Assembly (NCBI GenBank): GCA_964019135.1
Contig: OZ025248.1
Coordinates: 76,328,119 to 76,392,118 of the forward strand
Direction: 5' to 3'
DNA from: Arenicola marina
Lineage: Eukaryota; Annelida; Polychaeta; Arenicolidae
Length of the DNA stretch: 64,000 nucleotides
Each line of letters starts with the position of its first letter. Position 1 is the first letter of the stretch. The translations under genes and the position numbers were made by a program. Shown piece by piece: positions 6,825 to 58,894 of this stretch. Below the pieces are notes generated by a model. It was not told the origin of the DNA. It saw nothing but the letters and a program-made list of their open reading frames with translations, and ran no database searches.

Positions 6825-6899
6825 AGGGTTAGGGCCTGCCGGCCATTGTCAACAATAAGGCAATAAGGCAATGAGACCGAGGCAATGAGACCGACAGAC

Positions 6900-6983
6900 C
6901 TTGCTGTCGTCACTGTAGGCAGTCAGGTTCTCCGACAGCTTGGTGATCTCCATTTCCTGGCTACTGCTGTAGACGCGGTACAT
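6900..6983 (-). CDS. USP47: USP47 exon D (ubiquitin-like repeat, YRVYSSSQEME)
   Basis: This exon is 84 nt, 28 codons, phase 0 at both ends. The acceptor is TACCCTTCAG and the donor AGCAAG | GTCTGT. The peptide begins MYRVYSSSQEMEITKLSEN and ends AYSDDSK. Vertebrate USP47 has a 28-residue segment directly after the exon-C region with the same layout: (V/I)FRVY, SNQE, a LxE turn, and a final SDD(N/S)K. The length match is exact. The next exon should start with an ITIRLGRAL-like stretch; it is not visible in 1-6899. The donor is followed by short imperfect duplications (GGTCTCATTGCCT twice). Confidence 0.93.
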
Positions 6984-10300: not shown

Positions 10301-10968
10301 CACAACCCACACCACACCACATCTAACTACACTTCCATTCCATAACACGGGGTCATTAACCTCACAACCCACACCACACCACATCTAACTACACTTCCAT
10401 TCCATAACACGGGGTCAGTAACCTCACAACCCACACCACACCACATCTAACTACACTCCCATTCCACAACACGGGGTCATTAACCTCACAACCCACACCA
10501 CACCACATCTAACCACACTTCCATTCCATAACAGGGAGTCAGTAACCTCACAACCCACACCACACCACATCTAACCACACTCCCATTCCATAACAGGGAG
10601 TCAGTAACCTTACAACCCACACCACACCACTTCAAACTACACTCCCATTCCATAACACGGGGTCAGTAACCTCACAACCCACACCACACCACATCTAACT
10701 ACACTTCCATTCCATAACACGGGGTCAGTAACCTCACAACCCACACCACACCACATCTAACTACACTCCCATTCCATAACACGGGGTCAGTAACCTCACA
10801 ACCCACACCACACCACATCTAACTACACTTCCATTCCATAACACGGGGTCAGTAACCTCACAACCCACACCACACCACATCTAACTACATTTTCATTCCT
10901 TAACACGGGGTCAGTAACCTCACAACCCACACCACACCACTTCAAACTACACTCCCATTCCATTCCAC
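7379..10968. repeat. Minisatellite, 62-bp unit, about 58 copies
   Basis: The unit contains ACACGGGGTCAGTAACCTCA, CAACCCACACCACACCACAT and CTAACTACACTTCCATTCCA. Successive CACGGGGTCA starts at 7431, 7493 and 7555 give the 62-bp period. The main variants are TTCCATT/CCCATT and ACATCTAACT/ACTTCAAACT. The two forms are interspersed, which suggests higher-order structure. The 62-bp period is not divisible by three, and accordingly no long open frame spans it. Confidence 0.96.
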
Positions 10969-13900
10969 CTCACGTCATACTGGGCCCTGTCAATCCACCT
11001 CACGTCATACTGGGCCCTGTCAAACCACCTCACGTCATACTGAGCCCTGTCAAACCACATCACGTCATACTGGGCCCTGTCAAACCACCTCATGTCATAC
11101 TGGGCCCTGTCAAACCACCTCACGTCATACTGGGCCCTGCAAAACCACCTCACGTCATACTGGGCCCTGTCAAACCACCTCACGTCATACTGGGCCCTGT
11201 CAAACCACATCACGTCATACTGGGCCCCGTCAAACCACATCACGTCATACTGGGCCCTGTCAAACCACCTCATGTCATACTGGGCCCTGCCAAACCACCT
11301 CATGTCATACTGGGCCCTGTCAAACCACCTCACGTCATACTGGGCCCTGTCAAACCACCTCACGTCATACTGGGCCCTGCCAAACCACCTCACGTCATAC
11401 TGGGCCCTGTCAAACCACATCACGTCATACTGGGCCCTGTCAAACCACCTCATGTCATACTGGGCCCTGTCAAACCACCTCACGTCATACTGGGCCCTGC
11501 AAAACCACCTCACGTCATACTGGGCCCTGTCAAACCACCTCACGTCATACTGGGCCCTGTCAAACCACATCACGTCATACTGGGCCCCGTCAAACCACAT
11601 CACGTCATACTGGGCCCTGCCAAACCACCTCACGTCATACTGGGCCCTGCCAAACCACCTCATGTCATACTGGGCCCTGTCAAACCACCTCACGTCATAC
11701 TGGGCCCTGTCAAACCACCTCACGTCATACTGGGCCCTGCCAAACCACCTCACGTCATACTGGGCCCTGTCAAACCACATCACGTCATACTGGGCCCCGT
11801 CAAACCACATGACGTCACACTGGGCCCTGCCAAACCACCTCACGTCATACTGGGCGCCGTCAAACCACCTCACGTCATACTGGGCCCCGTCAAACCACCT
11901 CACGTCATACTGGACCCTGTCAGACCACATCACGTCATACTGGGCCCTGCCAAACCACATGACGTCACACTGGGCCCTGTCAAACCACCTCACGCCATAC
12001 TGGGCCCTGTCAAACCACATGACGTCACACTGGGCCCTGTCAAACACCTCACGTCATACTGGGCCCTGCCAAACCACCTCACGTCAAACTGGGCACTGTC
12101 AAACCACCTCACGTCATACTGGGCACTGTCAAACCACCTCATGTCATACTGGGCACTGTCAAACCACCTCACGTCATACTGGGCCCTGTCAAACCACCTC
12201 ACGTCATACTGGGCCCTGTCAAACCACCTCACGTCATACTGGACCCTGCCAAACCCACCTCACGTCATACTGGGCCCTGTCAAACCACATGACGTCATAC
12301 TGGGCCCTGCCAAACGACCTCACGTCATACTGGGCCCCGTCAAACCACCTCACGTTATACTGGGCCCTGCCAAGCCACCTCACGTCATACTGGGCCCTGT
12401 CAAACCACCTCACGTCACACTGGGCCCTGTCAAACCACCTCACGTCATACTGGGCCCTGTCAAACCACATCACGTCATACTGGGCCCCGTCAAACCACGT
12501 GACGTCACACTGGGCCCTGCCAAACCAATTCACGTCATACTGGGCGCCGTCAAACCACCTCACGTCATACTGGGCCCCGTCAAACCACCTCACGTCATAC
12601 TGGGCCCTGTCAAACCACATCACGTCATACTGGGCAGTGCCAAACCACATGACGTCACACTGGGCCCTGTCAAACCACCTCACGCCATACTGGGCCCTGT
12701 CAAACCACATGACGTCACACTGGGCCCTGTCAAACCACATGACGTCACACTGGGCCCTGTCAAACCACCTCACGTCATACTGGGCCCTGTCAAACCACCT
12801 CACGTCATACTGGGCCCCGTCAAACAACCTCACGTCATACTGAGCCCCGTCAAACACCTCACGTCATACTGGGCCCTGTCAAACCACCTCACGTCATACT
12901 GGGCCCTGTCAAACCAGCTCACGTCATACTGAACCCCGTCAAACCACCTCACGTCATACTGGGCACTGTCAAACCACCTCACGTCATACTGAGCCCCGTC
13001 AAACACCTCAAGTCATACTGGGCCCTGTCAAACCACCTCACGTCATACTGGGCCCTGCCAAACCACCTCACGTCAAACTGGGCACTGTCAAACCACCTCA
13101 CGTCATACTGGGCACTGTCAAACCACCTCACGTCATACTGGGCACTGTCAAACCACCTCACGTCATACTGGGCCCTGCCAAACCACCTCACGTCATACTG
13201 GGCCCTGTCAAACCACCTCACGTCATACTGGGCCCTGTCAAACCATCTCACGTCATACTGGGCCCTGTCAAACCACATGACGTCACACTGGGCCCTGCCA
13301 AACCACCTCACGTCATACTGGGCCCTGCCAAACCACCTCACGTCATACTGGGCACTGTCAAACCACCTCACGTCATACTGGGCCCTGCCAAACCACCTCA
13401 CGTCATACTGGGCCCTGTCAAACCACCTTACGTCATACTGAGCACTGTCAAACCACCTCACGTCATACTGGGCCCTGCCAAACCACCTCACGTCATACTG
13501 GGCCCTGTCAAACCACATGACGTCATACTGGGCCCTGCCAAACCACCTCACGTCATACTGGGCCCTGTCAATCCACATGACGTCATACTGGGCCCTGTCA
13601 AACCATCTCACGTCATACTGGGCCCTGTCAAACCACATGACGTCACACTGGGCCCTGCCAAACCACCTCACGTCATACTGGGCCCTGTCAAACCAACCCA
13701 CGTCATACTGGGCCCTGTCAAACCAGATCACGTCATACTGGGCCCCGTCAAACCACATGACGTCACACTGGGCCCTGCCAAACCACCTCACGTCATACTG
13801 GGCCCCGTCAAACCACATGACGTCACACTGGGCCCTGTCAAACCACCTCACGTCATACTGGGCCCCGTCAAACCACCTCATCGTCATACTGGGCCCTGTC

Positions 13901-16900
13901 AAACCACATCACGTCATACTGGGCCCTGTCAAACCACCTCACGTCACACTGGGCCCTGTCAAACCACCTCACGTCATACTGGGCCCTGTCAAACCACCTC
14001 ACGTCATACTGAGCCCTGTCAAACCACATCACGTCATACTGGGCCCTGTCAAACCACCTCACGTCATACTGGGCCCTGTCAAACCACCTCACGTCACGCT
14101 GGGCCCTGTCAAACCATCTCACGTCATACTGGGCCCTGTCAACCCACATGACGTCACACTGGGCCCTGCCAAACCACCTCACGTCATACTGGGCCCCGTC
14201 AAACCACCTCACGTCATACTGGGCCCTGTCAAACCACCTCACGTCATACTGGGCCCTGTCAAACCACATCACGTCATACTGGGCCCCGTCAAACCACATG
14301 ACGTCACACTGGGCCCTGCCAAACCACCTCACGTCATACTCGGCGCCGTCAAACCACCTCACGTCATACTGGGCCCCGTCAAACCACCTCACGTCATACT
14401 GGGCCCTGTCAAACCACATCACGTCATACTGGGCCCTACCAAATCACATGACGTCACACTGGGCCCTGTCAAACCACCTCACGCCATACTGGGCCCTGTC
14501 AAACCACATGACGTCACACTGGGCCCTGTCAAACCACATGACGTCACACTGGGCCCTGTCAAATCACCTCACGTCATACTGGGCCCTGTCAAACCACCTC
14601 ACGTCATACTGGGCCCCGTCAAACCACCTCACGTCATACTGAGCCCCGTCAAACACCTCACGTCATACTGGGCCCTGTCAAACCACCTCAGGTCATACTG
14701 GGCCCTGTCAAACCAGCTCACGTCATACTGAACCCCGTCAAACCACCTCACGTCATACTGGGCCCCGTCAAACACCTCACGTCATACTGGGCCCTGCCAA
14801 ACCACCTCACGTCAAACTGGGCACTGTCAAACCACCTCACGTCATACTGGGCACTGTCAAACCACCTCACGTCATACTGGGCCCTGCCAAACCACCTCAC
14901 GTCATACTGGGCCCTGTCAAACCACCTCACGTCATACTGGGCCCTGCCAAACCACCTCACGTCATACTGGGCCCTGCCAAACCACCTCACGTCATACTGG
15001 GCCCTGCCAAACCACCTCACGTCATACTGGGCCCTGTCAAACCACATGACGTCATACTGGGCCCTGTCAAACCATGTCACGTCATACTGGGCCCTGTCAA
15101 ACCACATGACGTCACACTGGGCCCTGCCAAACCACCTCACGTCATACTGGGCCCCGTCAAACCACATGACGTCACACTGGGCCCTGTCAAACCACATGAC
15201 GTCACACTGGGCCCTGTCAAACCAACTCACGTCATACTGGGCCCTGTCAAAGCGCCTCACGTCATACTGGGCCCCGTCAAACCACCTCACGTCATACTGA
15301 GCCCCGTCAAACCACCTCACGTCATACTGGGCCCCGCCAAACCACCTCACGTCATACTGGGCACCGTCAAACCACATCACGTCATACTGGGCCCCGTCAA
15401 ACCACATGACGTCACACTGGGCCCTGCCAAACCACCTCACCTCATACTGGGCCCCGTCAAACCACCTCACGTCATACCGGGCCCTGTCAAACCACATCAC
15501 GTCATACTGGGCCCTGTCAAACCACATCACGTCATAATGGGTCTGGTCAAACCACATGACGTCACACTGGGCCCTGTCAAACCACCTCACGCCATACTGG
15601 GCCCCGTCAAACCACATGACGTCACACTGGGCCCTGTCAAACCACATGACGTCACACTGGGCCCTGTCAAACCAACTCACGTCATACTGGGCCCTGTCAA
15701 AGCACCTCACGTCATACTGGGCCCCGTCAAACCACCTCACGTCATACTGAGCCCCGTCAAACCACCTCACGTCATACTGGGCCCCGCCAAACCACCTCAC
15801 GTCATACTGGGCCCCGTCAAACCACCTCACGTCATACTGGGCCCTGTCAAACCACCTCACGTCATACTGGGCCCCGTCAAACCACCTCACGTCATACTGG
15901 GCCCTGTCAAACCACCTCACGTCATACTGGGCCCTGTCAAACCACCTTACGTCATACTGGGCCCTGTCAAACCACCTCACGTCATACTGGGCCCTGTCAA
16001 ACCACCTCACGTCATACTGGGCCCCGTCAAACCACCTCACGTCATACTGGGCCCTGTCAAACACCTCACGTCATACTGGGCCCTGTCAAACCACCTCACG
16101 TCATACTGGGCCCTGTCAAACCACATGACGTCACACTGGGCCCTGTCAAACCACATGACGTCACACTGGGCCCTGTCAAACCACCTCACGTCATACTGGG
16201 CCCTGTCAAACCACCTCACGTCATACTGGGCCCTGTCAAACCACCTCACGTCATACTGGGCCCTGTCAAACCGCATGACGTCACACTGGGCCCTGTCAAA
16301 CCACATGACGTCACACTGGGCCCTGTCAAACCACCTCACGTCATACTGGGCCATGTCAAACCACCTCACGTCATACTGGGCCCTGTCAAACCACTTCACG
16401 TCATACTGAGCCCCGTCAAACCACCTCACGTCATACTGGGCCCTGTCAAACTACCTCACGTCATACTGGGCCCCGTCAAACCACCTCACGTCATACTGGG
16501 CCCTGTCAAAGCACATGACGTCATCCTGGGCCCCGTCAAACCACCTCACGTCATACTGGGCCCTGTCAAACCACCTCACGTCATACTGGTCCCTGTCAAA
16601 CCACCTCACGTCATACTGGGCCCCGTCAAACCACCTCACGTCATACTAGGCCCTGTCAAACCACCTCACGTCATACTGGGCCCTGTCAATCCACCTCACG
16701 TCATACTGGGCCCTGTCAAACCACCTCACGTCATACTGGGCTCTGTCAAACCACCTCACGTCATACTGGGCCCCGTCAAACCACCTCACGTCATACTGGG
16801 CCCTGTCAAACCACCTCACGTCATACTGGGCCCCGTCAAACCACCTCACGTCATACTGGGCCCCGTCAAACCACCTCACGTCATACTGGGCCCTGTCAAA

Positions 16901-17467
16901 CCACCTCACGTCATACTGGGCCCTGTCAAACCACATGACGTCACACTGGGCCCTGTCAAACCACATGACGTCACACTGGGCCCTGTCAAACCACCTCACG
17001 TCATACTGGGCCCTGTCAAACCACCTCACGTCATACTGGGCCCTGTCAAACCACCTCACGTCATACTGGGCACTGTCAAACCACATGACGTCACACTGGG
17101 CCCTGTCAAACCACATGACGTCACACTGGGCCCTGTCAAACCACCTCACGTCATACTGGGCCATGTCAAACCACCTCACGTCATACTGGGCCCTGTCAAA
17201 CCACCTCACGTCATACTGAGCCCTGTCAAACCACCTCACGTCATACTGGGCCCTGTCAAACCACCTCACGTCATACTGGGCCCCGTCAAACCACCTCACG
17301 TCATACTGGGCCATGTCAAACCACATGACGTCATACTGGGCCCTGTCAAACCACCTCACGTCATACTGGGCCCTGTCAAACCACCTCACGTCATACTGGG
17401 GCCCGTCAAACCACCTCACGTCATACTGGGCCCTGTCAAACCACATGACGTCATACTGGGCCCCGCC
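10969..17467. repeat. Satellite-like array, 30-bp unit, about 216 copies, with CRE motifs
   Basis: The unit is TCAAACCACCTCACGTCATA followed by CTGGGCCCTG. A common variant reads CACATGACGTCACACTGG and so contains the complete cAMP-response palindrome TGACGTCA. Other variants change CCCTGT to CCCCGT, CCCTGC or CACTGT. The units are arranged in higher-order blocks: for example the AAAACCACC variant recurs at 11131 and 11491 (360 bp, 12 units), and a block with CACGCCATAC recurs near 11988, 12685, 14483 and 15590. It fills 59 percent of the intron between exons C and D. Confidence 0.96.
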
Positions 17468-17980: not shown

Positions 17981-18072
17981 CTTGAAGAAGTCGGCCGAGG
18001 CGCCCACATACGTCTCCAGTTGTTTCTTGAGCGAGCCGAGCGTGATTCTCCTGTCGACATAGGCCGTCAGTC
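17981..18072 (-). CDS. USP47: USP47 exon C (start of ubiquitin-like repeat, RRITLGSLKK)
   Basis: This 92-nt exon follows acceptor TGTTACAG and ends at TTCTTCAAG | GTAATC. It completes a split Gly codon with exon B, then encodes 30 residues beginning LTAYVDRRITLGSLKKQLE and ending VGASADFFK. The pattern V-D-(K/R)-R-I-T-L, then K-x-x-L-E-x-(F/Y)-V-G and a final F-K matches vertebrate USP47 residue for residue in spacing (30 of 30 positions align without gaps). It ends in phase 0, as needed by exon D. This is one of the two strongest identifications in the window. Confidence 0.95.
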
Positions 18073-18207
18073 CTGTAACATACAGCTCCATGTACCTAAC
18101 AATGCCTTAACACGGGGCACTCAGAAAACATTGCCACGGTAATTTGGATCCCGCCCCACTAGACACAAATATTTCACAGACAAATGCCTGGTCAGAAATA
18201 TGTGATG

Positions 18208-18267
18208 TGGGCCCCGTGAAACCACATGACATCACACTGGGCACTGTCAAACCACCTCACGTCATAC
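18208..18267. repeat. Orphan pair of 30-bp satellite units
   Basis: Exactly two units (60 bp) of the 30-bp satellite: TGGGCCCCGTGAAACCACAT with GACATCACAC, then TGGGCACTGTCAAACCACCT with CACGTCATAC. The parent array ends at 17467, and exon C (17981-18072) lies between the two. The orphan directly abuts the 33-bp array. Confidence 0.9.
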
Positions 18268-18269
18268 GT

Positions 18270-18787
18270 AGTACATGTACCCGCCTAAATAGAGATAATT
18301 TACAGACAATTACCCGCATAATTACAGATATTTGACTAACAAGTACCCGCCTAAATAGAGATATTTCACAGACAAGTACCCGCCTACATACAAATATTTC
18401 ACAGACGAGTACCCGCCTAAATGCAGATATTTGACTATCAAGTACCCGCCTAAATAGAGATATTTTACAGACAAGTACCCGCCTAAATACAGATATTTCA
18501 CAGACAAGCACCCGCCTAAATACAGATATTTGACTAACAAGCACCGGCCTAAATACAAATATTTTACAAACAAGTACCCGCGTAAATACAGATATTTTAC
18601 AGCCAAGTACAGGTACCCGCCTAAATAGAGATATTTTACAGCCAAGTACAGGTACCCGCCTAAATACAGATATTTCACAGACAAGTACCCGCCTAAATAC
18701 AGATATTTCACAAACAAGTACCCGCCTAAATACAGATATTTTACACACAAGTACCCGCCAAAACACATATTTTTGACAGAAAAGTAC
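18270..18787. repeat. Minisatellite, 33-bp unit, about 15 copies, starting at the exon B splice donor
   Basis: Read on the gene (minus) strand, the unit is GTACTTGTCTGTGAAATATC then TGTATTTAGGCGG, 33 bp. The 33 bases immediately after exon B (18787 down to 18755) have the same layout: they start GTACTTTTCTGTCAAAAATA and end GGCGG. So the authentic donor is the first, diverged unit. Two units near 18605 and 18645 carry an extra AAGTACAGGT block. Together with the orphan satellite it makes up most of the 715-bp intron. Confidence 0.93.
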
Positions 18788-19579
18788 CCCTCTCTCTTGT
18801 CTCCGTATCCACGTGCAGTTGCGCAGTGAAGTACTTCCGGTACTCCTCGTCTTCCGCCTGTTCCCAGCTCTCCCGGTTCCGGGCAGTCGCCGCCGACACG
18901 CCGTCCGCCACGCGGTTGCTCCTCAGAAGGTCAAAGCTGCCGTTGTCAAGGTCAGCATCAAGGTCGGCCGCTGCCGGAGCAAAGTCAGGGTCTCCGATAT
19001 CCCAGTTCTCGACCTTGCTCCCCTTGGTCACACAATCATCAGCGTCTGGGAGGAGGTCACGTGACGTGGGCGAGGTAGACTGCGAGACGTCGGCGCTGTT
19101 GGCGGCCGAGGTCTGGGCGGAGGGGGACGGCGGCAGCATCGCCTCGCTGCTCATCGGGGACGCCTCGCCTCCGGACTCCTGAGAATGGACTTCCGCTTCC
19201 GGCGACTCCACCTGCCCGGACAACTGGTACTCCCGTGAGATGGCGCCACCAATACAGGCGTGTAGGTCGGATCGCGCCTGGGAGCCCAGCGCGTTCCTCA
19301 ACGGCCCATTCCCCGCCTCGTCGCCCAGGCCATCACCCTGGCCCGCCTCGTCCCCCAGGCCGTCCCCCAGGCCATCACCCTGGCCCTGCTCGTCCCGCAC
19401 GCCGCCGCCGCCGCCGCCGCCCCGGAGGTCGCTCTCGCTGCCTCCGAGACCCTCGTCCACATCGTCATCGGCCTTTCCTGAAGTGGCCAGCGACCCTGTC
19501 TGAGACTCTTCGAGCAGAGGGCGCTGCTCGGTGGCGTCCTGCCCCGTGGCTGACTGCAGACGCCCGGCGGAAAACGGAC
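18788..19579 (-). CDS. USP47: USP47 exon B (acidic, low-complexity linker)
   Basis: This 792-nt exon begins after a CT-rich acceptor (CTCTCTCTCGCTAG) and ends at GAGAGGG | GTACTT. It opens PFSAGRLQSATGQ and is rich in Ser, Glu, Asp and Gly. It holds a seven-glycine run and an in-frame tandem repeat built from GDGLGDEAGQ-like blocks (about 19320-19410). The end is more conserved: CVTKGSKVENWD, then ESWEQAEDEEYRKYF and HVDTETRER. Vertebrate USP47 has a similar acidic Ser/Asp-rich linker, ending in a Tyr-Phe motif just before the next ubiquitin-like repeat. The phase-1 ends match exon A and exon C. The polypyrimidine tract is a (CT)n microsatellite (the GA run at 19584-19602 on the plus strand). 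Confidence 0.9.
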
Positions 19580-34737: not shown

Positions 34738-35300
34738 GTACAAGGGTGATAACGCAATAGACCGGGCTCGGGAAGAGGTGTAATGAGAACGTACATTGGC
34801 GGGGGGCCCTCGGTGACCGGGGCGAGGCGAGCCGCCCGCACCCCGCCCTCCGCCCCTCGCCCCCCGCCCCCCGCAGCCCTCCAGGACCAGACAGCGGGGC
34901 CCCTGACCTACTGACCCGGAGGAATGAGGACCCCCGGAGCACGGGGGAGTGCAGGTGGAGGGCAGCCAGCGACTACGGAGGGGAAGACATCGAGAATGGT
35001 CCATGTGACTTTATGCACCACTGCAGAGCGATACATACTGCCACAAGGAATCAGGCTAACATTGCACCTCAAAGGCGGTGTGTGGGGGTGGCGGGAGGGA
35101 GGAGGGGCGTGGGGGGGGAGCATCGACTGGCCACCCGGAAAGGCAATTCCACTTAACAAGCAAGATGTGGGAGTTTATTGGACAATGTAAGAGCGGCTTA
35201 AATGCCAAAATATGACATTTGTTTGCTCATCGCCTTAGAGGGAACCCGGAAAACCGGTAAGCCAACTACCCGTTTCAATACCTATCAGCCATTGCACCAT
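34738..35300. other. Unique, GC-rich intron sequence
   Basis: About 560 bases, with C- and G-rich runs at 34838-34880 and 35085-35120. No exon recognised; the spacing to the LINE fragment is short. Confidence 0.55.
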
Positions 35301-35489
35301 ACCGGGAGACATCTCTGGCCAGACTTCACCACAATGATCGTGTCTGTCTCATCAATCAGTAATTGTACCGGGAGACATCTCTGGCCAGACTTCACCACAA
35401 TGATCGTGTCTGTGTCACCCATCAGTAATTGTGCCGAGAGACATTTCTGGCCAGACTTCACCACAATGATCGTGTCTGTCTCACCGTTT
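35301..35489. repeat. Tandem repeat, 66-bp unit, 2.9 copies, inside the LINE
   Basis: ACCGGGAGACATCTCTGGCC starts at 35301 and recurs at 35367 and (GCCGAGAGACATTTC) at 35433, giving 66 bp. It ends where the reverse transcriptase reading resumes near 35490. On the minus strand it adds an in-frame ETDTIIVVKSGQ motif after the RT segment. Confidence 0.9.
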
Positions 35490-36534
35490 CTGACATGGAA
35501 GCTCTCGGACGTTGCTCCGCCGAACTGTGCTGTGCTGAACGAGTGTTCATGAAAGGAGCGGATAAGGTTAAGTAGTCTGCGGGGGCACCCAATAGACTCC
35601 AAGATTTTGTACAAGCCAGATCTGCTGACTGTTTCAAAAGCGTTGGTAAGATCAACAAAAGCAAGGTAGAGGGGCTTGTGTTGTTCTCTACATTTCTCTT
35701 GAAGTTGACGCAACGCAAATATCATGTCAACAGTCGATCGTCCGGATCTGAATCCACACTGCGCTTCAGGATATACTCTATTTGCAAGGAGTTGCAGTCT
35801 CTTTAAGGCAATTCTGGCGAAGAGCTTACCAGTAACACTTAAGAGTGATATTCCGCGGTAGTTGTTACAATCACCCCGGTCCCCTTTGTTTTTGCAGAGT
35901 GTTTTCTATATTTGCATCACGCATGTCCTGTGGAACAATACCGGTGTTCCAGCAAAGGACGAGAAGTTGGTGAAGATGAGGGAGCAACATAGTTTTCCCA
36001 CACTTTATTACTTCAGCGGGAATCCTGTCGTTGCCAGGCGATTTCCCGCTGCCCCAGGAATCGATTGCATCTGTCAAGATCGTTCATGACCGGCAGTCGG
36101 GGTAATGCGTCAAGCGTCGTTTCCGATACATGAGACTCGTGCGCGTACAATGAGACATAGTGTTCCACACAGCGAGACAGCTGCTTGCTACGATCCGTAA
36201 TCACCTCGCCATCAAGTGACTTTAAGGGGGCTGTTTTAGTGACCTTGGGGCCCAGGGCTTTCTTAATTCCGGTATACATTGCCCGCATATTCCTTCTATC
36301 AGACGCCTCCTGGATCTCCTCGCAAAGGTTTATCCAGTACTGATTGGCGCAATAACGCGCTGCTTTTTGTACTGCATTTCTCGCCAGCCTCAGCTGTAAC
36401 AGAGACGTGTTTGTCGGATTTTGATTGTGTTGTATGAGTTTTTCATTTTTGGCTTCAATAACAGGTTCCATCTCTGCTGAGTGAGTGGCGAACCAATCCT
36501 TGTTGACAGATTTCATTTTCCCGAACGATGTCAA
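35490..36534 (-). pseudogene. LINE linker and 5' half of reverse transcriptase, broken
   Basis: The linker (36013-36534) starts near MKSVNKDWF and contains ARNAVQKAARYCANQYW. The RT follows in pieces: IDSWGSGKSPGNDRIPAEV (36070 region), NNYRGISLLSVTGKLFARIA (35805-35865), QCGFRSGRSTVDMIFALRQL (35710-35770) and LAFVDLTNAFETVSR (35620-35665), with the first catalytic Asp present. NYRGISLL, GFR.GRST and VDL..AF are standard RT motifs. The sequence stops at GGATSESFHVRNG, so the second catalytic pair is absent. LINE copies are usually truncated at the 5' end, so loss of the 3' half is atypical. Confidence 0.9.
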
Positions 36535-36578
36535 CGCAGCGCCGTAAATGGCAGAGCGCAGCGTCGCCCCGCATTCTT

Positions 36579-37474
36579 CTACATCAGAAGATGTTCATTG
36601 GCTGGCAGCGTCTGCTCCAACGTTTGCCGAATGAGACGACGCTTGTCGCTCTCCTGCGTGCCAAGTGAGTCAATCCGAGATCGAGATTTATGGTTAGTGG
36701 TATACATTGTCCTAGGGGTAATCATTACCCTGCTCCCGACAAGCGAGTTATCGGTATCGCAATCTGCGCTGTGATACGCTCCTGTGTTTAGGACACGGGG
36801 CAGATCTCGCCGTTTTGTCAGGATCAGATCTAGCTGATGCCAATGGCCTGAACTTGGGTGGCGCCATGACACCTTATGCCTAAAACTACCTTGGAAAGAA
36901 GTGTTTGTGATACAGAGTTCGCTCTGCGCGCATAGCTCCAATAAACGTTGTCCGTTCTCGTTGATCTTCCCAACGCCAAAATGACATATGCAACTCGACC
37001 AAGAACCATGGTCATCCCCAACGCGTGCGTTAAAATTCCCGAGAATAAACAACTGATCGCCCTTTGGCGCCTGATTTATGACCTCCCTCAGAGAGTCATA
37101 AAAACGGTCTTTGTCGTCAGCGGTAGAATAAAGGGTTGGAGCGTATACGCTGATTATGGTAGCGGACGCCCCATTTGATTGCATGCGAAGTGACATTATT
37201 CTTTCAGAAACTGCGACAGGCGCTTCGATTGTTTTGCCAAATTATTTTTGACGGCAAAACCTACACCGTGTTCGCGACGGTCCTGGGCACCCTTTCCGCG
37301 CCAGTAAAACGTGTAATTGGCCTCCTTTACCGATCCTGCGTCAGCCAATCGTGTCTCCTGTAGGGCAACTCTATCCACGTTTAGTTTGTGAAGTTCACGG
37401 TCGATCAGCGCTGTCTTACGAACATTGTCAGTCGAGTCCGGTTCGTTTGTCATGCCAGTACACATGGTCCTCAC
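36579..37474 (-). pseudogene. LINE AP-endonuclease domain, frameshifted, catalytic residues lost
   Basis: The N-terminal part (37196-37474) contains LNVDRVALQETRLADAG, with the catalytic Glu of the QETR motif present, followed by NYTFYWRGKG. A frameshift near 37235 moves to the frame of 36579-37196, with IISVYAPT, then ILGNFNARVGDDH, HWHQLDLIL and HSADCDTDNSLV. Family members read GDFNA and SDH at these places. Here GNFNA has Asn for the catalytic Asp, and TDN has Asn for the catalytic His. With the frameshift, this points to an inactive enzyme. Confidence 0.9.
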
Positions 37475-40633: not shown

Positions 40634-43600
40634 ATGAGGTCAGGTAAGCCACAGTCCCCCAAGGGCGGGTCCTCGGACAGTGTCAGGTAAGCCACACTCC
40701 CCAAGAGCGGGTCCTCGGACAGTGTCAGGTAAGCCACTCCCCCAAGGGCGGGTCCTCGAACAGTGTCAGGTAAGTCACACTCCCCCAAGGGCGGGTCCTC
40801 GGACAGTGTCAGGTAAGCCACACTCCCCAAGAGCGGGTCCTCGGACAGTGTCAGGTAAGCCACTCCCCCAAGGGCGGGTCCTCGAACAGTGTCAGGTAAG
40901 TCACACTCCCCCAAGGGCGGGTCCTCGGACAGCCGCTTCACGCCAGGTAAGTCACTCCCCCAAGGGCGGGTCCTCGGACAGTGTAGTCCGAGGACCCGCC
41001 CTTGCCTGTGTCCGAGGACCCGCCCTTGTCGCTTCACGGCAGGTAAGTCACACTCCCCCAAGAGCGGGTCCTCGGACATCCGCTTCCCGTCAGGTAAGTC
41101 ACACTCCCCCAAGGACGGGTCCTCGGACAGCCGCTTCACGTCAGGTAAGTCACACTCCCCCAAGGACGGGTCCTCGGACAGCCGCTTCACGTCAGGTAAG
41201 TCACACTCCCCCAAGGGCGGGTTTTCGGACAGCCGCTTCACGTCAGGTAAGTCACACTTCCCCAATGGCGGGTCCTCGGACATCCGCTTCCCGTCAGGTA
41301 AGTTACACTCCCCCAAGGACGGGTCCTCGGACAGCCGCTTCACGTCAGGTAAGTCACACTCCCCCAAGGGCGGGTCTTCGGACAGCCGCTTCACGTCAGG
41401 TAAGTCACACTCCCCCAAGGGCGGGTCTTCGGACAGCCGCTTCACGTCAGGTAAGTCACACTCCCCCAAGGGCGGGTCCTCGGACATCCGCTTCACGTCA
41501 GGTAAGTCACACTCCCCCAAGGACGGGTCCTCGGACAGCCGCTTCACGTCAGGTAAGTCACACTCCCCCAAGGGCGGGTCTTCGGACAGCCGCTTCACGT
41601 CAGGTAAGTTACACTCCCCCAAGGACGGGTCCTCGGACAGCCGCTTCACGTCAGGTAAGTCACACTCCCCCAAGGACGGGTCTTCGGACATCCGCTTCAC
41701 GTCAGGTAAGTCACACTCCCCCAAGGGCGGGTCCTCGTACAGCCGCTTCACGTCAGGTAAGTCACACTCCCCCAAGGGCGGGTCCTCGGACAGCCGCTTC
41801 ACGTCAGGTAAGTCACACTCCCCCAAGGACGGGTCCTCGGACAGCCGCTTCACGTCAGGTAAGTCACACTCCCCCAAGGGCGGGTCCTCGGACAGCCGCT
41901 TCACGTCAGGTAAGTCACACTCCCCCAAGGACGGGTCCTCGGACAGCCGCTTCACGTCAGGTAAGTCACACTCCCCCAAGGGCGGGTCCTCGGACAGCCG
42001 CTTCACGTCAGGTAAGCCACACTCCCCCAAGGGCGGGTCTTCGGACAGCCGCTTCACGTCAGGTAAGTCACACTCCCCCAAGGGCGGGTCCTCGGACATC
42101 CGCTTCACGTCAGGTAAGTCACACTCCCCCAAGGACGGGTCCTCGGACAGCCGCTTCACGTCAGGTAAGTCACACTCCCCCAAGGGCGGGTCTTCGGACA
42201 GCCGCTTCACGTCAGGTAAGTTACACTCCCCCAAGGACGGGTCCTCGGACAGCCGCTTCACGTCAGGTAAGTCACACTCCCCCAAGGACGGGTCTTCGGA
42301 CATCCGCTTCACGTCAGGTAAGTCACACTCCCCCCAAGGGCGGGTCCTCGTACAGCCGCTTCACGTCAGGTAAGTCACACTCCCCCAAGGGCGGGTCCTC
42401 GGACAGCCGCTTCACGTCAGGTAAGTCACACTCCCCCAAGGACGGGTCCTCGGACAGCCGCTTCACGTCAGGTAAGTCACACTCCCCCAAGGGCGGGTCC
42501 TCGGACAGCCGCTTCACGTCAGGTAAGTCACACTCCCCCAAGGACGGGTCCTCGGACAGCCGCTTCACGTCAAGTAAGTCACACTCCCCCAAGGGCGGGT
42601 CCTCGTACAGCCGCTTCACGTCAGGTAAGTCACACTCCCCCAAGGACGGGTCCTCGGACAGCCGCTTCACGTCAGGTAAGTCACACTCCCCCAAGGGCGG
42701 GTCTTCGGACAGCCGCTTCACGTCAGGTAAGTTACACTCCCCCAAGGACGGGTCCTCGGACATCCGCTTCACGTCAGGTAAGTCACACTCCCCCAAGGAC
42801 GGGTCCTCGGACATCCGCTTCACGTCAGGTAAGTCACACTCCCCCAAGGGCGGGTCCTCGTACAGCCGCTTCACGTCAGGTAAGTCACACTCCCCCAAGG
42901 GCGGGTCCTCGGACAGCCGCTTCACGTCAGGTAAGTCACACTCCCCCAAGGACGGGTCCTCGGACAGCCGCTTCACGTCAGGTAAGTCACACTCCCCCAA
43001 GGGCGGGTCCTCGTACAGCCGCTTCACGTCAGGTAAGTCACACTCCCCCAAGGGCGGGTCCTCGGACAGCCGCTTCACGTCAGGTAAGTCACACTCCCCC
43101 AAGGGCGGGTCCTCGGACAGTGTCAGGTAAGTCACACTCCCCCAAGGACGGGTTCTCGGACAGCCGCTTCCCGTCAGGTAAGTCACACTCCCCCAAGGGC
43201 GGGTCCTCGGACAGCCGCTTCACGTCAGGTAAGTCACACTCCCCCAAGGGCGGGTCCTCGGACATCCGCTTCACGTCAGGTAAGTCACACTCCCCCAAGG
43301 ACGGGTCCTCGGACAGCCGCTTCACGTCAGGTAAGTCACACTTCCCCAATGGCGGGTCCTCGGACATCCGCTTCCCGTCAGGTAAGTTACACTCCCCCAA
43401 GGACGGGTCCTCGGACATCCGCTTCACGTCAGGTAAGTCACACTCCCCCAAGAGCAAGTCCTCGGACATCCGCTTCACGTCAGGTAAGTCACACTCCCCC
43501 AAGGGCGGGTCCTCGGACATCCGCTTCACGGCAGGTAAGTCACACTCCCCCAAGGGCGGGTCCTTGGACAGCCGCTTCACGTCAGGTAAGTCACACTCCC

Positions 43601-46600
43601 CCAAGGACGGGTCCTCGGACAGCCGCTTCACGTCAGGTAAGTCACACTCCCCCAAGGACGGGTCCTCGGACAGCCGCTTCACGTCAGGTAAGTCACACTC
43701 CCCCAAGGACGGGTCCCCGGACAGCCGCTTCACGTCAGGTAAGTCACACTCCCCCAAGGACGGGTTCTCGGACAGCCGCTTCACGGCAGGTAAGTCACAC
43801 TCCCCCAAGGGCGGGTCCTCGGACATCCGCTTCCCGTCAGGTAAGTCACACTCCCCCAAGGACGGGTCCCCGGACAGCCGCTTCACGTCAGGTAAGTCAC
43901 ACTCCCCCAAGGACGGGTCCTCGGACAGCCGCTTCACGTCAGGTAAGTCACACTCCCCCAAGGGCGGGTCCTCGGACATCCGCTTCACGGCAGGTAAGTC
44001 ACACTCCCCCAAGGGCGGGTCCTCGGACAGCCGCTTCACGTCAGGTAAGTCACACTCCCCCAAGGACGGGTCTTCGGACATCCGCTTCACGGCAGGTAAG
44101 TCACACTCCCCCAAGGGCGGGTCCTCGGACAGCCGCTTCACGTCAGGTAAGTCACACTCCCCCAAGGGCGGGTCCTCGGACATCCGCTTCACGTCAGGTA
44201 AGTCACACTCCCCCAAGGGCGGGTCCTCGGACAGCCGCTTCACGTCAGGTAAGTCACACTCCCCCAAGGGCGGGTCCTCGGACATCCGCTTCACGTCAGG
44301 TAAGTCACACTCCCCCAAGGGCGGGTCTTCGGACAGCCGCTTCACGTCAGGTAAGCCACACTCCCCCAAGGACGGGTCCTCGGACAGTGTCAGGTAAGTC
44401 ACACTCCCCCAAGGGCGGGTCTTCGGACATCCGCTGCACGTCAGGTAAGTCACACTCCCCCAAGGGCGGGTCTTCGGACATCCGCTGCACGTCAGGTAAG
44501 TCACACTCCCCCAAGGGCGGGTCCTCGGACATCCGCTTCCCGTCAGGTAAGTTACACTCCCCCAAGGACGGGTCCTCGGACATCCGCTTCACGTCAGGTA
44601 AGTCACACTCCCCCAAGGGCGGGTCCTCGGACAGCCGCTTCACGTCAGGTAAGTCACACTCCCCCAAGGACGGGTCCTCGGACAGCCGCTTCACGTCAGG
44701 TAAGTCACACTCCCCCAAGGGCGGGTCCTCGGACAGCCGCTTCACGTCAGGTAAGTCACACTCCCCCAAGGGCGGGTCCTCGGACATCCGCTTGACGTCA
44801 GGTAAGTCACACTCCCCCAAGGACGGGTCCTCGGACAGCCGCTTCACGTCAGGTAAGTCACACTCCCCCAATGGCGGGTCCTCGGACAGCCGCTTCACGT
44901 CAGGTAGGCCACACTCCCCCAAGGACGGGTTCTCGGACAGCCGCTTCACGGCAGGTAAGTCACACTCCCCCAAGGGCGGGTCCTCGGACAGCCGCTTCCC
45001 GTCAGGTAAGTCACACTCCCCCAAGGGCGGGTCCTCGGACAGCCGCTTCACGTCAGGTAAGTCACACTCCCCCAAGGGCGGGTTTTCGGACAGCCGCTTC
45101 ACGTCAGGTAAGTCACACTCCCCCAATGGCGGGTGCTCGGACATCCGCTTCCCGTCAGGTAAGTTACACTCCCCCAAGGACGGGTCCTCGGACAGCCGCT
45201 TGACGTCAGGTAAGTCACACTCCCCCAAGGGCGGGTCCTCGGACATCCGCTTCACGTCAGGTAAGTCACACTCCCCCAAGGGCGGGTCCTCGGACAGCCG
45301 CTTCACGTCAGGTAAGTCACACTCCCCCAAGGGCGGGTCCTCGGACAGCCGCTTCACGTCAGGTAAGTCACACTCCCCCAAGGGCGGGTCCTCGGACAGC
45401 CGCTCCACGTCAGGTAAGTCACACTCCCCCAAGGGCGGGTCCTCGGACATCCGCTTGACGTCAGGTAAGTCACACTTCCCCAAGGGCGGGTCCTCGGACA
45501 GCCGCTTCACGTCAGATAAGTCACACTCCCCCAAGGGCGGGTCCTCGGACAGCCGCTTCACGTCAGGTAAGCCACACTCCCCCAAGGACGGGTTTTCGGA
45601 CAGCCGCTTCACGGCAGGTAAGTCACACTCCCCCAAGGACGGGTTCTCGGACAGCCGCTTCACGGCAGGTAAGTCACACTCCCCCAAGGGCGGGTCCTCG
45701 GACATCCGCTTCCCGTCAGGTAAGTCACACTCCCCCAAGGGCGGGTCCTTGGACATCCGCTTTACGTCAGGTAAGTCACACTCCCCCAAGGACGGGTCCT
45801 CGGACAGCCACTTCACGTCTGACTCAGGTAAGTCACACTCCCCCAAGGGCGGGTCCTTGGACATCCACTTTACGTCAGGTAAGTCACACTCCCCCAAGGA
45901 CGGGTCCTCGGACAGCCGTTTCACGTCTGACTCAGGTAAGTCACACTCCCCCAAGGGCGGGTCCTTGGACATCCGCTTCACGTCAGGTAAGTCACACTCC
46001 CCCAAGGGCGGGTCCTCGGACATCCGCTTGACGTCAGGTAAGTCACACTCCCCCAAGGGCGGGTCTTCGGACAGCCGCTTCCCGTCAGGTAAGTCACACT
46101 CCCCCAAGGGCGGGTCTTCGGACATCCGCTTCACGTCAGGTAAGTCACACTCCCCCAAGGGCGGGTCCTCGGACAGTGTCAGGTAAGTCACACTCCCCCA
46201 AGGGCGGGTCCTCGGACATCCGCTTGACGTCAGGTAAGTCACACTCCCCCAAGGGCGGGTCCTCGGACAGTGTCAGGTAAGCAACACTCCCCCAAGGGCG
46301 GGTCCTCGGACATCCGCTTGACGTCAGGTAAGTCACACTCCCCCAAGGGCGGGTCTTCGGACAGCCGCTTCCCGTCAGGTAAGTCACACTCCCCCAAGGG
46401 CGGGTCTTCGGACATCCGCTTCACGTCAGGTAAGTCACACTCCCCCAAGGGCGGGTCCTCGGACAGTGTCAGGTAAGTCACACTCCCCCAAGGGCGGGTC
46501 CTCGGACATCCGCTTCACGTCAGGTAAGTCACACTCCCCCAAGGGCGGGTCCTCGGACAGCCGCTTCACGTCAGGTAAGTCACACTCCCCCAAGGGCGGG

Positions 46601-49242
46601 TCCTCGGACAGCCGCTTCACGTCAGGTAAGTCACACTCCCCCAAGGGCGGGTCCTCGGACAGCCGCTCCACGTCAGGTAAGTCACACTCCCCCAAGGGCG
46701 GGTCCTCGGACATCCGCTTGACGTCAGGTAAGTCACACTCCCCCAAGGGCGGGTCCTCGGACAGCCGCTTCACGTCAGGTAAGTCACACTCCCCCAAGGG
46801 CGGGTCCTCGGACAGCCGCTTCACGTCAGGTAAGCCACACTCCCCCAAGGACGGGTTTTCGGACAGCCGCTTCACGGCAGGTAAGTCACACTCCCCCAAG
46901 GACGGGTTCTCGGACAGCCGCTTCACGGCAGGTAAGTCACACTCCCCCAAGGGCGGGTCCTCGGACAGCCGCTTCACGTCAGGTAAGTCACACTCCCCCA
47001 AGGGCGGGTCCTCGGACATCCGCTTGACGTCAGGTAAGTCACACTCCCCCAAGGGCGGGTCCTCGGACAGCCGCTTCACGTCAGGTAAGTCACACTCCCC
47101 CAAGGGCGGGTCCTCGGACAGCCGCTTCACGTCAGGTAAGTCACACTCCCCCAAGGGCGGGTCCTCGGACAGCCGCTTCACGTCAGGTAAGTCACACTCC
47201 CCCAAGGGCGGGTCCTCGGACAGCCGCTTCACGTCAGGTAAGTCACACTCCCCCAAGGGCGGTCCTCGGACAGCCGCTTCACGTCAGGTAAGTCACACTC
47301 CCCTAAGGGCGGGTCCTCGGACATCCGCTTGACGTCAGGTAAGTCACACTCCCCCAAGAACGGGTCTTCGGACAGCCGCTTCACGTCAGGTAAGTCACAC
47401 TCCCCCAAGGGCGGGTCCTCGGACAGCCGCTTCACGTCAGGTAAGCCACACTCCCCCAAGGACGGGTTTTCGGACAGCCGCTTCACGGCAGGTAAGTCAC
47501 ACTCCCCCAAGGGCGGGTCCTCGGACATCCGCTTCACGTCAGGTAAGCCACACTCCCCCAAGGACGGGTTCTCGGACAGCCGCTTCACGGCAGGTAAGTC
47601 ACACTCCCCCAAGGGCGGGTCCTCGGACATCCGCTTCACGTCAGGTAAGTCACACTCCCCCAAGGACGGGTCCTCGGACAGCCGCTTCACGGCAGGTAAG
47701 CCACACTCCCCCAAGGACGGGTCCTCGGACATCCGCTTGACGTCAGGTAAGTCACACTCCCCCAAGGACGGGTTCTCGGACAGCCGCTTCCCGTCAGGTA
47801 AGTCACACTCCCCCAAGGGCGGGTCCTCGGACAGCCGCTTCACGTCAGGTAAGTCACACTCCCCCAAGGGCGGGTCCTCGGACATCCGCTTCACGTCAGG
47901 TAAGTCACACTCCCCCAAGGGCGGGTCTTCGGACAGCCGCTTCACGTCAGGTAAGCCACACTCCCCCAAGGACGGGTCCTCGGACATCCGCTTCACGTCA
48001 GGTAAGTCACACTCCCCCAAGGGCGGGTCCTCGGACAGTGTCAGGTAAGTCACACTCCCCCAAGGACGGGTCCTCGGACAGTGTCAGGTAAGTCACACTC
48101 CCCCAAGGGCGGGTCCTCGGACAGCCGCTTCACGTCAGGTAAGTCACACTCCCCCAAGGACGGGTCCTCGGACAGCCGCTTCACGTCAGGTAAGTCACAC
48201 TCCCCCAAGGGCGGGTCCTCGGACAGCCGCTTCACGTCAGGTAAGTCACACTCCCCCAAGGGCGGGTCCTCGGACAGCCGCTTCACGTCAGGTAAGTCAC
48301 ACTCCCCCAAGGGCGGGTCCTCGGACAGCCGCTTCACGTCAGGTAAGTCACACTCCCCCAAGGGCGGGTCCTCGGACATCCGCTTGACGGCAGGTAAGTC
48401 ACACTCCCCCAAGGGCGGGTCCTCGGACATCCGCTTCCCGTCAGGTAAGTCACACTCCCCCAAGGACGGGTCCTCGGACAGCCGCTTCACGTCAGGTAAG
48501 TCACACTCCCCCAAGGGTGGGTCCTCGGACAGCCGCTTCACGTCAGGTAAGTCACACTCCCCCAAGGGCGGGTCCTCGGACATCCGCTTCCCGTCAGGTA
48601 AGTCACACTCCCCCAAGGACGGGTCCTCGGACAGCCGCTTCACGTCAGGTAAGTCACACTCCCCCAAGGGCGGGTCCTCGGACAGCCGCTTCACGTCAGG
48701 TAAGCCACACTCCCCCAAGGACGGGTCCTCGGACAGTGTCAGGTAAGTCACACTCCCCCAAGGGCGGGTCTTCGGACATCCGCTTCACGTCAGGTAAGTC
48801 ACACTCCCCCAAGGGCGGGTCCTCGGACAGCCGCTTCCCGTCAGGTAAGTCACACTCCCCCACGGGCGGGTCCTCGGACAGCCGCTTCACGTCAGGTAAG
48901 TCACACTCCCCCAAGGGCGGGTCCTCGGACAGCCGCTTCACGTCAGGTAAGCCACACTCCCCCAAGGACGGGTCCTCGGACAGTGTCAGGTAAGTCACAC
49001 TCCCCCAAGGGCGGGTCTTCGGACATCCGCTTCACGTCAGGTAAGTCACACTCCCCCAAGGACGGGTCCTCGGACAGCCGCTTCACGTCAGGTAAGTCAC
49101 ACTCCCCCAAGGACGGGTCCTCGGACAGTGTCAGGTAAGCCACACTCCCCCAAGGGTGGGTCCTCGGACAGTGTCAGGTAAGTCACACTCCCCCAAAGGC
49201 GGGTCCTCGGACAGCCGCTTCCCGTCAGGTAAGCCACACTCC
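40634..49242. repeat. Large minisatellite, 51-bp unit, about 168 copies, with 5' splice-site and GC-box motifs
   Basis: The unit is TCAGGTAAGTCACACTCCCC, CAAGGGCGGGTCCTCGGACA and GCCGCTTCACG. A shorter 42-bp form ends CGGACAGTG. Nearly every unit carries CAGGTAAGT, the full U1-complementary donor consensus, on the plus strand (antisense to USP47), and GGGCGGG, a GC-box. Variants are GACGGG/GGCGGG, GACATCC/GACAGCC and AAGTTACAC/AAGTCACAC. An AAGTTACAC unit at 41606 recurs at 42218 (612 bp = 12 units), a higher-order repeat. Confidence 0.97.
40961..41028. repeat. Perfect 19-bp inverted repeat within the 51-bp array
   Basis: CAAGGGCGGGTCCTCGGAC (40961-40979) faces its exact reverse complement (40986-41004) across a 6-base loop, AGTGTA. 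A second inverted copy lies at 41010-41028. It is the only place I see in this array where unit direction flips. Confidence 0.95.
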
Positions 49243-49365
49243 CCGTGAGCCTCCCCCAAGGGGCCCGCTGTCCGTAAGACGTGACGCTGTCCCACACATA
49301 CGTCACTGCTATACGGGTCGGCAGGGGGAAGCACCGCATGAGGCAGCGCCCTTTAACAGGATTAC

Positions 49366-49495
49366 CTGGTTGAAAAGTCGGCAGGGTGATGTGGAGGCGG
49401 ATCGTGTTCTCGTAGCGATCCAGCAACTTGAAGAGACGTGTGTCCTGGAACAGGATTTGGGAGTCGTCTTCGGTGCCGGAGCATTCCAGGAACAC
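49366..49495 (-). CDS. USP47: USP47 exon A (ubiquitin-like segment, LLDRYENTIRL)
   Basis: The minus strand reads CTCAG | GTG TTC CTG GAA and runs for 43 codons plus one base to a donor CAACCAG | GTAATC. The peptide starts VFLECSGTEDDSQ, continues LFQDTRLFKLLDRYENTIRL and ends ITLPTFQP. In vertebrate USP47 the matching stretch runs from a KVFVES-like start to a LLDRHANTIRL-like core and ends in LP, with about the same length. The start is in phase 0 and the end in phase 1, which fits exon B exactly (G + GT gives Gly). Flanking sequence on both sides is non-coding. The exon just upstream (Ubl beta-grasp part) was not recognised. Confidence 0.88.
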
Positions 49496-58694: not shown

Positions 58695-58894
58695 NNNNNN
58701 NNNNNNNNNNNNNNNNNNNNNNNNNNNNNNNNNNNNNNNNNNNNNNNNNNNNNNNNNNNNNNNNNNNNNNNNNNNNNNNNNNNNNNNNNNNNNNNNNNNN
58801 NNNNNNNNNNNNNNNNNNNNNNNNNNNNNNNNNNNNNNNNNNNNNNNNNNNNNNNNNNNNNNNNNNNNNNNNNNNNNNNNNNNNNNNNNNNNNN
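58695..58894. other. Assembly gap (200 N)
   Basis: Exactly 200 unknown bases lie between two unrelated arrays (27-bp on the left, 42-bp on the right). A round number suggests a placeholder of unknown true size. Confidence 0.98.

Follow-up and report, generated by a model that had tools for sequence, protein, structure and literature searches.

In the window analysed here (the whole stretch of Arenicola marina DNA, 64,000 bases), the intron that follows exon B of a USP47 gene opens directly into a 33-bp minisatellite, array B, whose first unit contains the 5′ splice site of the exon. This array is probably a minisatellite derived from the splice junction and would work like the mirages described in amphioxus; seeding from the junction appears to be the best reading of its origin, a reading that rests on one assembly and 32 donors. 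It is supported mainly by sister arrays at other splice junctions, and the wider pattern, in which donors appear to have been made into minisatellites repeatedly, is a more interesting result than array B alone. It is a long-standing question how the splicing machinery settles on a single donor when dozens of identical ones lie side by side. Natural experiments on donor choice are offered by exon J of the same gene, with 56 exact copies of ACAG/GTAGG in a row (a slash marks the splice junction here and below), and by a myosin donor whose array runs to 83 copies.

A minisatellite at the exon B donor of USP47

The minus strand of the window carries a USP47 orthologue. Its exons were first found with a human USP47 probe, and the collinear exon set was confirmed by 32 database homologs, which match it exon by exon save at exons B and I, where there is no separate match. 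Exons A to L form a single open frame through to the stop codon with their junctions in phase, and the joined translation matches Pfam USP47_C at 3e-91. In a tree with 19 of the 32 homologs, the protein groups with that of the annelid Capitella (97/95) and apart from Branchiostoma, with P0001 about as near by path. No convincing match to exons upstream of exon A was found in about 165 kb (best E 0.07, low complexity), which places the catalytic half of USP47 outside the exons found. Smaller searches gave little: exon B alone as a protein query returned none at E 0.01 among 7983 candidates scored, two frames read through the end of exon B and the array contained no Pfam domain at E 0.1, Pfam on three non-array gaps, read on the minus strand, gave one match (0.32), and short pieces searched against PDB and Pfam gave at best a ubiquitin-like match (0.047). 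No tRNA was found in the window.

The surroundings are rich in repeats. Of the 64,000 bases of the window, 48,074 (about 75%) belong to tandem arrays, and the window stops roughly 0.6 Mb short of the end of the 77.0-Mb contig. The 30-bp units of the array in intron C-D recur across exon C in intron B-C, near a relic 33-bp unit. A 51-bp array of 165 copies (40891-49244), preceded by similar units already from about 40641, has a perfect CAGGTAAGT in its consensus unit, antisense to USP47; it was ruled out as a USP47 donor ladder because this motif and the gene are on opposite strands. The minus strand also carries fragments of a non-LTR retrotransposon at 35288-37241 (reverse transcriptase PF00078; endonuclease PF14529, at its cut-off), and a run of N at 58695-58894, between two arrays, is probably an assembly gap.

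Table 1. Features of the USP47 region. Positions are those of the window, except where the contig C1 is named.
Feature	Position	Strand	Remarks
USP47 exon A	49366..49495	minus	nearest array begins 122 nt past last base
USP47 exon B (792 nt)	18788..19579	minus	AG and GT limits, continuous A-L frame; C-terminal part aligns with homologs; ends GAGAGGG, outside the repeat
33-bp minisatellite (array B)	18273..18789	minus	15 full units, all 33 bp long but for two of 39 bp, and one partial; flush with exon B donor; TRF, unit table
Exon B donor GT (GGG/GTACTT)	18786..18787	minus	first bases of unit 1
Unit 1	18755..18787	minus	contains the authentic donor; 27/33 to consensus
Unit 2	18722..18754	minus	of the later donor copies, its GTACTT alone leaves the frame open, with 11 residues added
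Diverged copies of the 30-bp unit of intron C-D	18222..18266	minus	distal end of array B; 25/30 at 18222-18251, 29/30 (rotated unit) at 18237-18266
Isolated relic of the 33-bp unit	18155..18187	minus	25/33; about 85 bp past array B
Acceptor AG of exon C, TTACAG/GACTGACGG	18073..18074	minus	intron B-C is 715 nt
USP47 exon C (LTAYVDRRITLGSLKKQLETYVGASADFFK)	17981..18072	minus	
30-bp array (217 copies), intron C-D	10965..17463	minus	unit recurs at distal end of array B
USP47 exon D	6900..6983	minus	14-bp x 2 repeat (6866-6894) from 6 nt past last base
Exon F acceptor array	C1:76319246-76324214 (loci L009-L011)		83-bp unit, 59.9 copies; TTGTAG/CCCAGTAAGTTTCTGATGG, exon F start inside array
Exon G donor array	C1:76317712-76318480 (loci L009-L011)		36-bp unit, 21 copies; exon end TCCTGCCAG/GTAAAG inside unit
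Exon J donor array	C1:76304352-76306147 (loci L009-L011)		29-bp unit, 61.9 copies; exon end GCCGTCCTCTACTACAG/GTAGGG inside unit

TRF reports array B with a period of 33, 15.3 copies and a score of 618. A preliminary description of the locus had counted about 15 units of 33 bases, taken the authentic donor as the first of them and seen GG/GTACTT in each later one. The first unit and the count of units are borne out: on the minus strand the exon ends and the intron opens with GTACTT at 18788/18787, flush with the array, and 15 units are full. The unit length of 33 bp applies to 13 units, with units 5 and 6 reaching 39 bp, and although GT is present in all 14 later full units, the exact GG/GTACTT is found in only 8 of the 14; the deviating donors are GTACCT (units 5 and 6), GTGCTT (8 and 9), GTACTC (12) and GTAATT (15).

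Unit 1 equals the array consensus at 27 of 33 positions, a value reached by none of 200,000 shuffles of unit 1 (maximum 22). The same description held that its proposal would fall if the first 33 intron bases were no more similar to the unit than random intron sequence, and that alignment came out clearly the other way: among the other non-array 33-mers of the window (30,134, overlapping and from both strands, a few hundred of them within the N run), the best matched at 25 positions, in the relic unit at 18155, and the next at 19. Unit 1 is also the most diverged of the array, with a mean of 7.7 differences to the other units against 3.1-5.9 for units 2-15. Edge units of tandem arrays are usually the most diverged. 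On the exon side the likeness ends, for the last 33 bases of exon B match the unit at 9 of 33 positions, which is chance level, with two contiguous bases at the junction, and the units of array B hold only about two exon bases. Within the unit, 14 of the 33 columns are invariant. Most units read CGG/GTACTT and none AG/GT, so the array is not dual-specific.

A search of the whole genome (867 Mb, 762 contigs) with array B, by a method that skips very common words, found the array itself as the sole match. There is thus no sign of an invading dispersed repeat, and a dispersed repeat family was set aside; the relic at 18155 is the sole other copy of the unit at 21/33 or better in the 264 kb searched. 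A coding repeat was ruled out as well, as the frame closes in unit 2. A variant common to units 8, 11 and 14 hints at a growth step of three units; in the lag table of the array, three was not singled out and lag 5 was lower. Across the B-C junction, the protein (TRERG-LTAYVDRR) aligns without indels with Lottia (PDSRS-LTVYVDKR), P0001, Capitella, Nymphon and Elysia, which makes the donor at 18787 the one that the protein needs, and we infer that this donor is the one in use.

Arrays at other splice junctions

Three further junctions of USP47, the donors of exons J and G and the acceptor of exon F, lie within tandem arrays (Table 1). AG/GT stands in most units of arrays J and G, the latter containing 21 exact copies of CAGGTAAAG spaced 36 bp apart. 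The exon parts within arrays J (GAVLYYR) and F (EPSKFLME) are conserved across homologs, and because the exon side is thus conserved coding sequence, the exon was copied into the array in these two cases and not the reverse. Exon G ends in residues (EILPG) that homologs share only in part (EILDG or VLDG), so that its end could have been overwritten by the array. At exons D and H, arrays begin 6 and 7 nt past the exon and the donor lies outside the array.

Between exons A and L (75 kb), arrays make up 73% of the sequence, and an array edge near an exon of this part of the gene is therefore unsurprising alone. An edge within -12 to +20 nt was found at 5 of the 11 USP47 donors, compared with 1.3% of random intronic positions; in 294 shifted controls, the donor count reached at most 3, and did so once. 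A random-seeding model, which was devised after the pattern had been noticed, predicts 0.33 junction-spanning arrays in USP47, where 3 are seen (P 0.0045). Of the 28 arrays of this part, two (J and G) have a motif from a list of strong donors in their consensus unit on the gene strand, and one (the 51-bp array) has one on the opposite strand; on either strand, none of the 67 other arrays of the 264 kb has such a motif.

Myosin heads were taken as a family with many exons (77 profile matches), the donors of which were not picked for arrays. For these matches 21 donors were read: 13 in two loci, C7 and C4, which were read whole and had been picked because their matches lay close together rather than at random, and 8 from the next matches in order of E-value. 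At C7, two of seven donors are array starts, with arrays that reach 13 and 15 nt into the exon; at C4, one of six is an array start, with 83 copies and only 4 exon bases in common. The array cover at these loci is 19% and 35%, respectively, and arrays starting inside the exon end are seen at 3 of the 13 donors against 0.40 expected (P 0.006). Among the eight further donors, the 62-bp unit at locus L042 comprises 48 exon bases and the donor, an array at locus L039 begins 5 nt past the donor junction (the donor being placed by eye), and the remaining six have no array at the donor. Altogether 4 of the 21 myosin donors have arrays with the exon end and the donor in the unit, and the myosin profile match extends to the array-bearing exon ends.

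When junctions in or beside an array edge are counted, at a TRF threshold of 50, donors are affected more often than acceptors (10 of 32 against 1 of 24, Fisher 0.016), the acceptors comprising 11 in USP47 and 13 in the two whole myosin loci. The ten donors include six with exon sequence in the unit, the flush donor of exon B, and those of D, H and L039, which are adjacent to arrays that contain no donor. The narrower measure, exon sequence in the unit, shows no significant difference (6 of 32 donors against 1 of 24 acceptors, Fisher 0.22). In myosin alone, 5 of 21 donors against 0 of 13 acceptors falls short of significance too (0.13). At a lower TRF threshold, a weak repeat of 15 bp x 2.7 (score 41) covers the acceptor of the final myosin exon of C7; at 50 it is absent.

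Donor-like 8-mers in series give a genome-wide hint: the pattern (AAGGTAAG N15-45)x3 gave 5944 matches compared with 810 for its reversed control, and CAGGTAAG, three in a row and 15-45 nt apart, gave 6064 compared with 1799; these figures are of matches and not of loci, and the count for CAGGTAAG is swollen by big arrays while its control is not low. Among the matches listed, each of the two patterns falls at no fewer than 11 or 12 distinct sites within the initial 28-32 Mb of C1.

Proposed origin of the arrays and possible use of the repeated donors

We propose that a short tandem duplication took in the start of intron B-C together with its donor. All extra copies would be spliced out as long as the donor next to the exon is used, so that such a duplication would be tolerated, and it would then have expanded to 15 units. 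Selection would preserve the donor of unit 1 in its working role, and homogenisation would go on among the inner units, as the divergence of unit 1 suggests. The same process appears to have been repeated in the genome, mostly at donors among the junctions examined (J, G and four myosin exons), and at J, F and the myosin exons the copying ran from exon to array, given the conserved coding sequence on the exon side. The earlier proposal that replication slippage or unequal exchange had expanded the splice junction itself gains, for either mechanism alike, from the uniqueness of the unit in the genome and from the sister arrays that carry the exon end with the donor; taken alone, array B does not prove the direction, from donor to array or from array to donor, because its unit holds so little of the exon.

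An unlikely alternative is that an ordinary intronic minisatellite grew up to the exon, which selection would keep clear of repeats, and that its last unit ends at the donor by chance. The abundance of arrays in this part of USP47 (73%) and in the window (75%) is in keeping with such growth, as are the two or so exon bases of array B and the arrays near exons D and H, which begin 6 and 7 nt past the exon without the donor. However, it leaves unexplained the units that contain exon sequence at J, G, F and the four myosin exons; arrays stand at myosin donors despite a cover of only 19% and 35%; and unit 1 of array B includes the donor itself, not merely adjoining sequence. We take array B to be a tolerated by-product of splicing and not a regulatory ladder.

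The preliminary description had suggested such a ladder, or a buffer, with the later GTACTT copies as alternative or back-up donors. The retention of GT in every later full unit would suit this role, and so would unit lengths of 33 and 39, both multiples of 3, as well as the 11 in-frame residues that donor 2 would add; the human IFI6 minisatellite, in the available part of PMC4526556, is a precedent for downstream repeat units serving as donors. Against it, donors 3-16 would bring in-frame stop codons, and the 11 residues are absent from all 8 homologs that align across the B-C junction (of 11 aligned). The kept GT is not special, since 14 of the 33 unit columns are invariant. With a hand-entered scoring matrix, the exon B donor scores -2.1, compared with 3.1-3.3 for those of exons A and C, and all later copies but one score weakly; unit 15 (GTAATT) reaches 2.2. 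The seven arrays that hold a donor have units of 33, 29, 36, 37, 32, 28 and 62 bp, and five of these lengths (29, 37, 32, 28 and 62) are not divisible by 3, which speaks against routine use of later donors. A functional ladder is very improbable for array B.

What a wrong choice of donor would entail differs among the arrays. At exon J, the intron starts with an in-frame stop, so that a later donor would give a truncated product. The exon G array is open over 21 units in the exon frame, as a 12-residue repeat (mostly KVTVSPVVVL with SG or PG), and later donors would therefore give in-frame repeat proteins. In arrays with AG/GT at the junction (J, G, the first C7 exon, C4 and L042), a second splice after a wrong choice could take place in principle; in array B and the second C7 array, a wrong donor choice could not be followed by re-splicing.

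Equally improbable is that a unit of a pre-existing array was drafted as the donor after the loss of an older one: the donor of exon B could have been so drafted in view of its weak score and the better donor in unit 15, it is atypical, and the unit is almost without exon B sequence, but the splice position looks old, the junction being free of indels against several homologs (in protein alignment only), and sister arrays J and F have conserved coding sequence on the exon side.

As a tentative extension of junction seeding, which we consider doubtful, 5′ splice sites may in this lineage be preferred over 3′ sites as nucleation points for minisatellites, because a duplicated donor would be spliced away and a duplicated acceptor would not; ladders of AG/GT would be self-correcting, nearly free of cost and able to spread over a large fraction of genes. 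In such a ladder, a wrong later donor would leave whole GT...AG units in the mRNA, and a second splice from donor 1 would remove them and restore the right junction.

Comparison with known systems

Our search of the open-access literature, judged mostly by title and the opening of the abstract, turned up no description of an annelid splice-junction array. Closest comes a paper on earthworm metallothionein genes (PMC12783039), which likewise have intronic tandem repeats in an annelid gene; their monomers are about 180 bp long and lie in the first intron, and derivation from a splice junction is unmentioned in the available part of that paper. Variable human tandem repeats at exon-intron boundaries within segmental duplications (PMC2812944) and intron gain by tandem duplication (PMC4974935) resemble the present arrays in that a tandemly duplicated boundary alters or creates splice choices. 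As far as the available portions of these two papers go, such duplications lead to new introns or longer exons, whereas here the junction is fixed and the copies lie within an existing intron.

In the human IFI6 (6-16) minisatellite (Turri 1995), as presented in the accessible part of PMC4526556, each repeat unit at the exon end offers a donor, as in array B, and units further downstream reportedly serve as donors. In array B, all later donors but one would bring stops. The dual-specific splice sites of human UBC, in the accessible text of PMC10809524, are like arrays J, G, the first C7 exon, C4 and L042 in having AG/GT once per unit, but the UBC repeats are coding monomers, whereas the arrays here are intronic save for the exon end. 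Array B, with CGG/GT at its unit junctions, does not belong with these.

The mirages of amphioxus (Adh3 and the globins BflGb6 and BflGb9), as described in the available part of PMC3087553, are likewise minisatellite-like tandem duplications at exon/intron boundaries, with units of tens of bases or longer, AG and GT signals kept in many units, boundary units that escape homogenisation, and both donor and acceptor sides affected. Array B has tandem units of minisatellite size at such a boundary (33 bp x 15.3), and splice signals recur in many units (GT in 14 of the 14 later full units of B, with 56 copies in J and 21 in G). It differs from the mirages in lying flush with the donor, with almost no exon sequence in the unit; units with both exon and intron sequence are found at J, G, F and the four myosin exons. 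The host of the mirages is a cephalochordate, whereas the USP47 described here groups with Capitella and not with Branchiostoma, and arrays with as many as 83 units lie at 10 of the 32 donors examined here, compared with the few amphioxus loci named in the available part of PMC3087553. If the share seen in these 32 donors (six with exon sequence in the unit, ten by the wider measure) were true genome-wide, a notable part of the tandem repeats, and of the material from which new introns and exons can form, would stem from splice sites, and the mirages of amphioxus would then exemplify a wider phenomenon.
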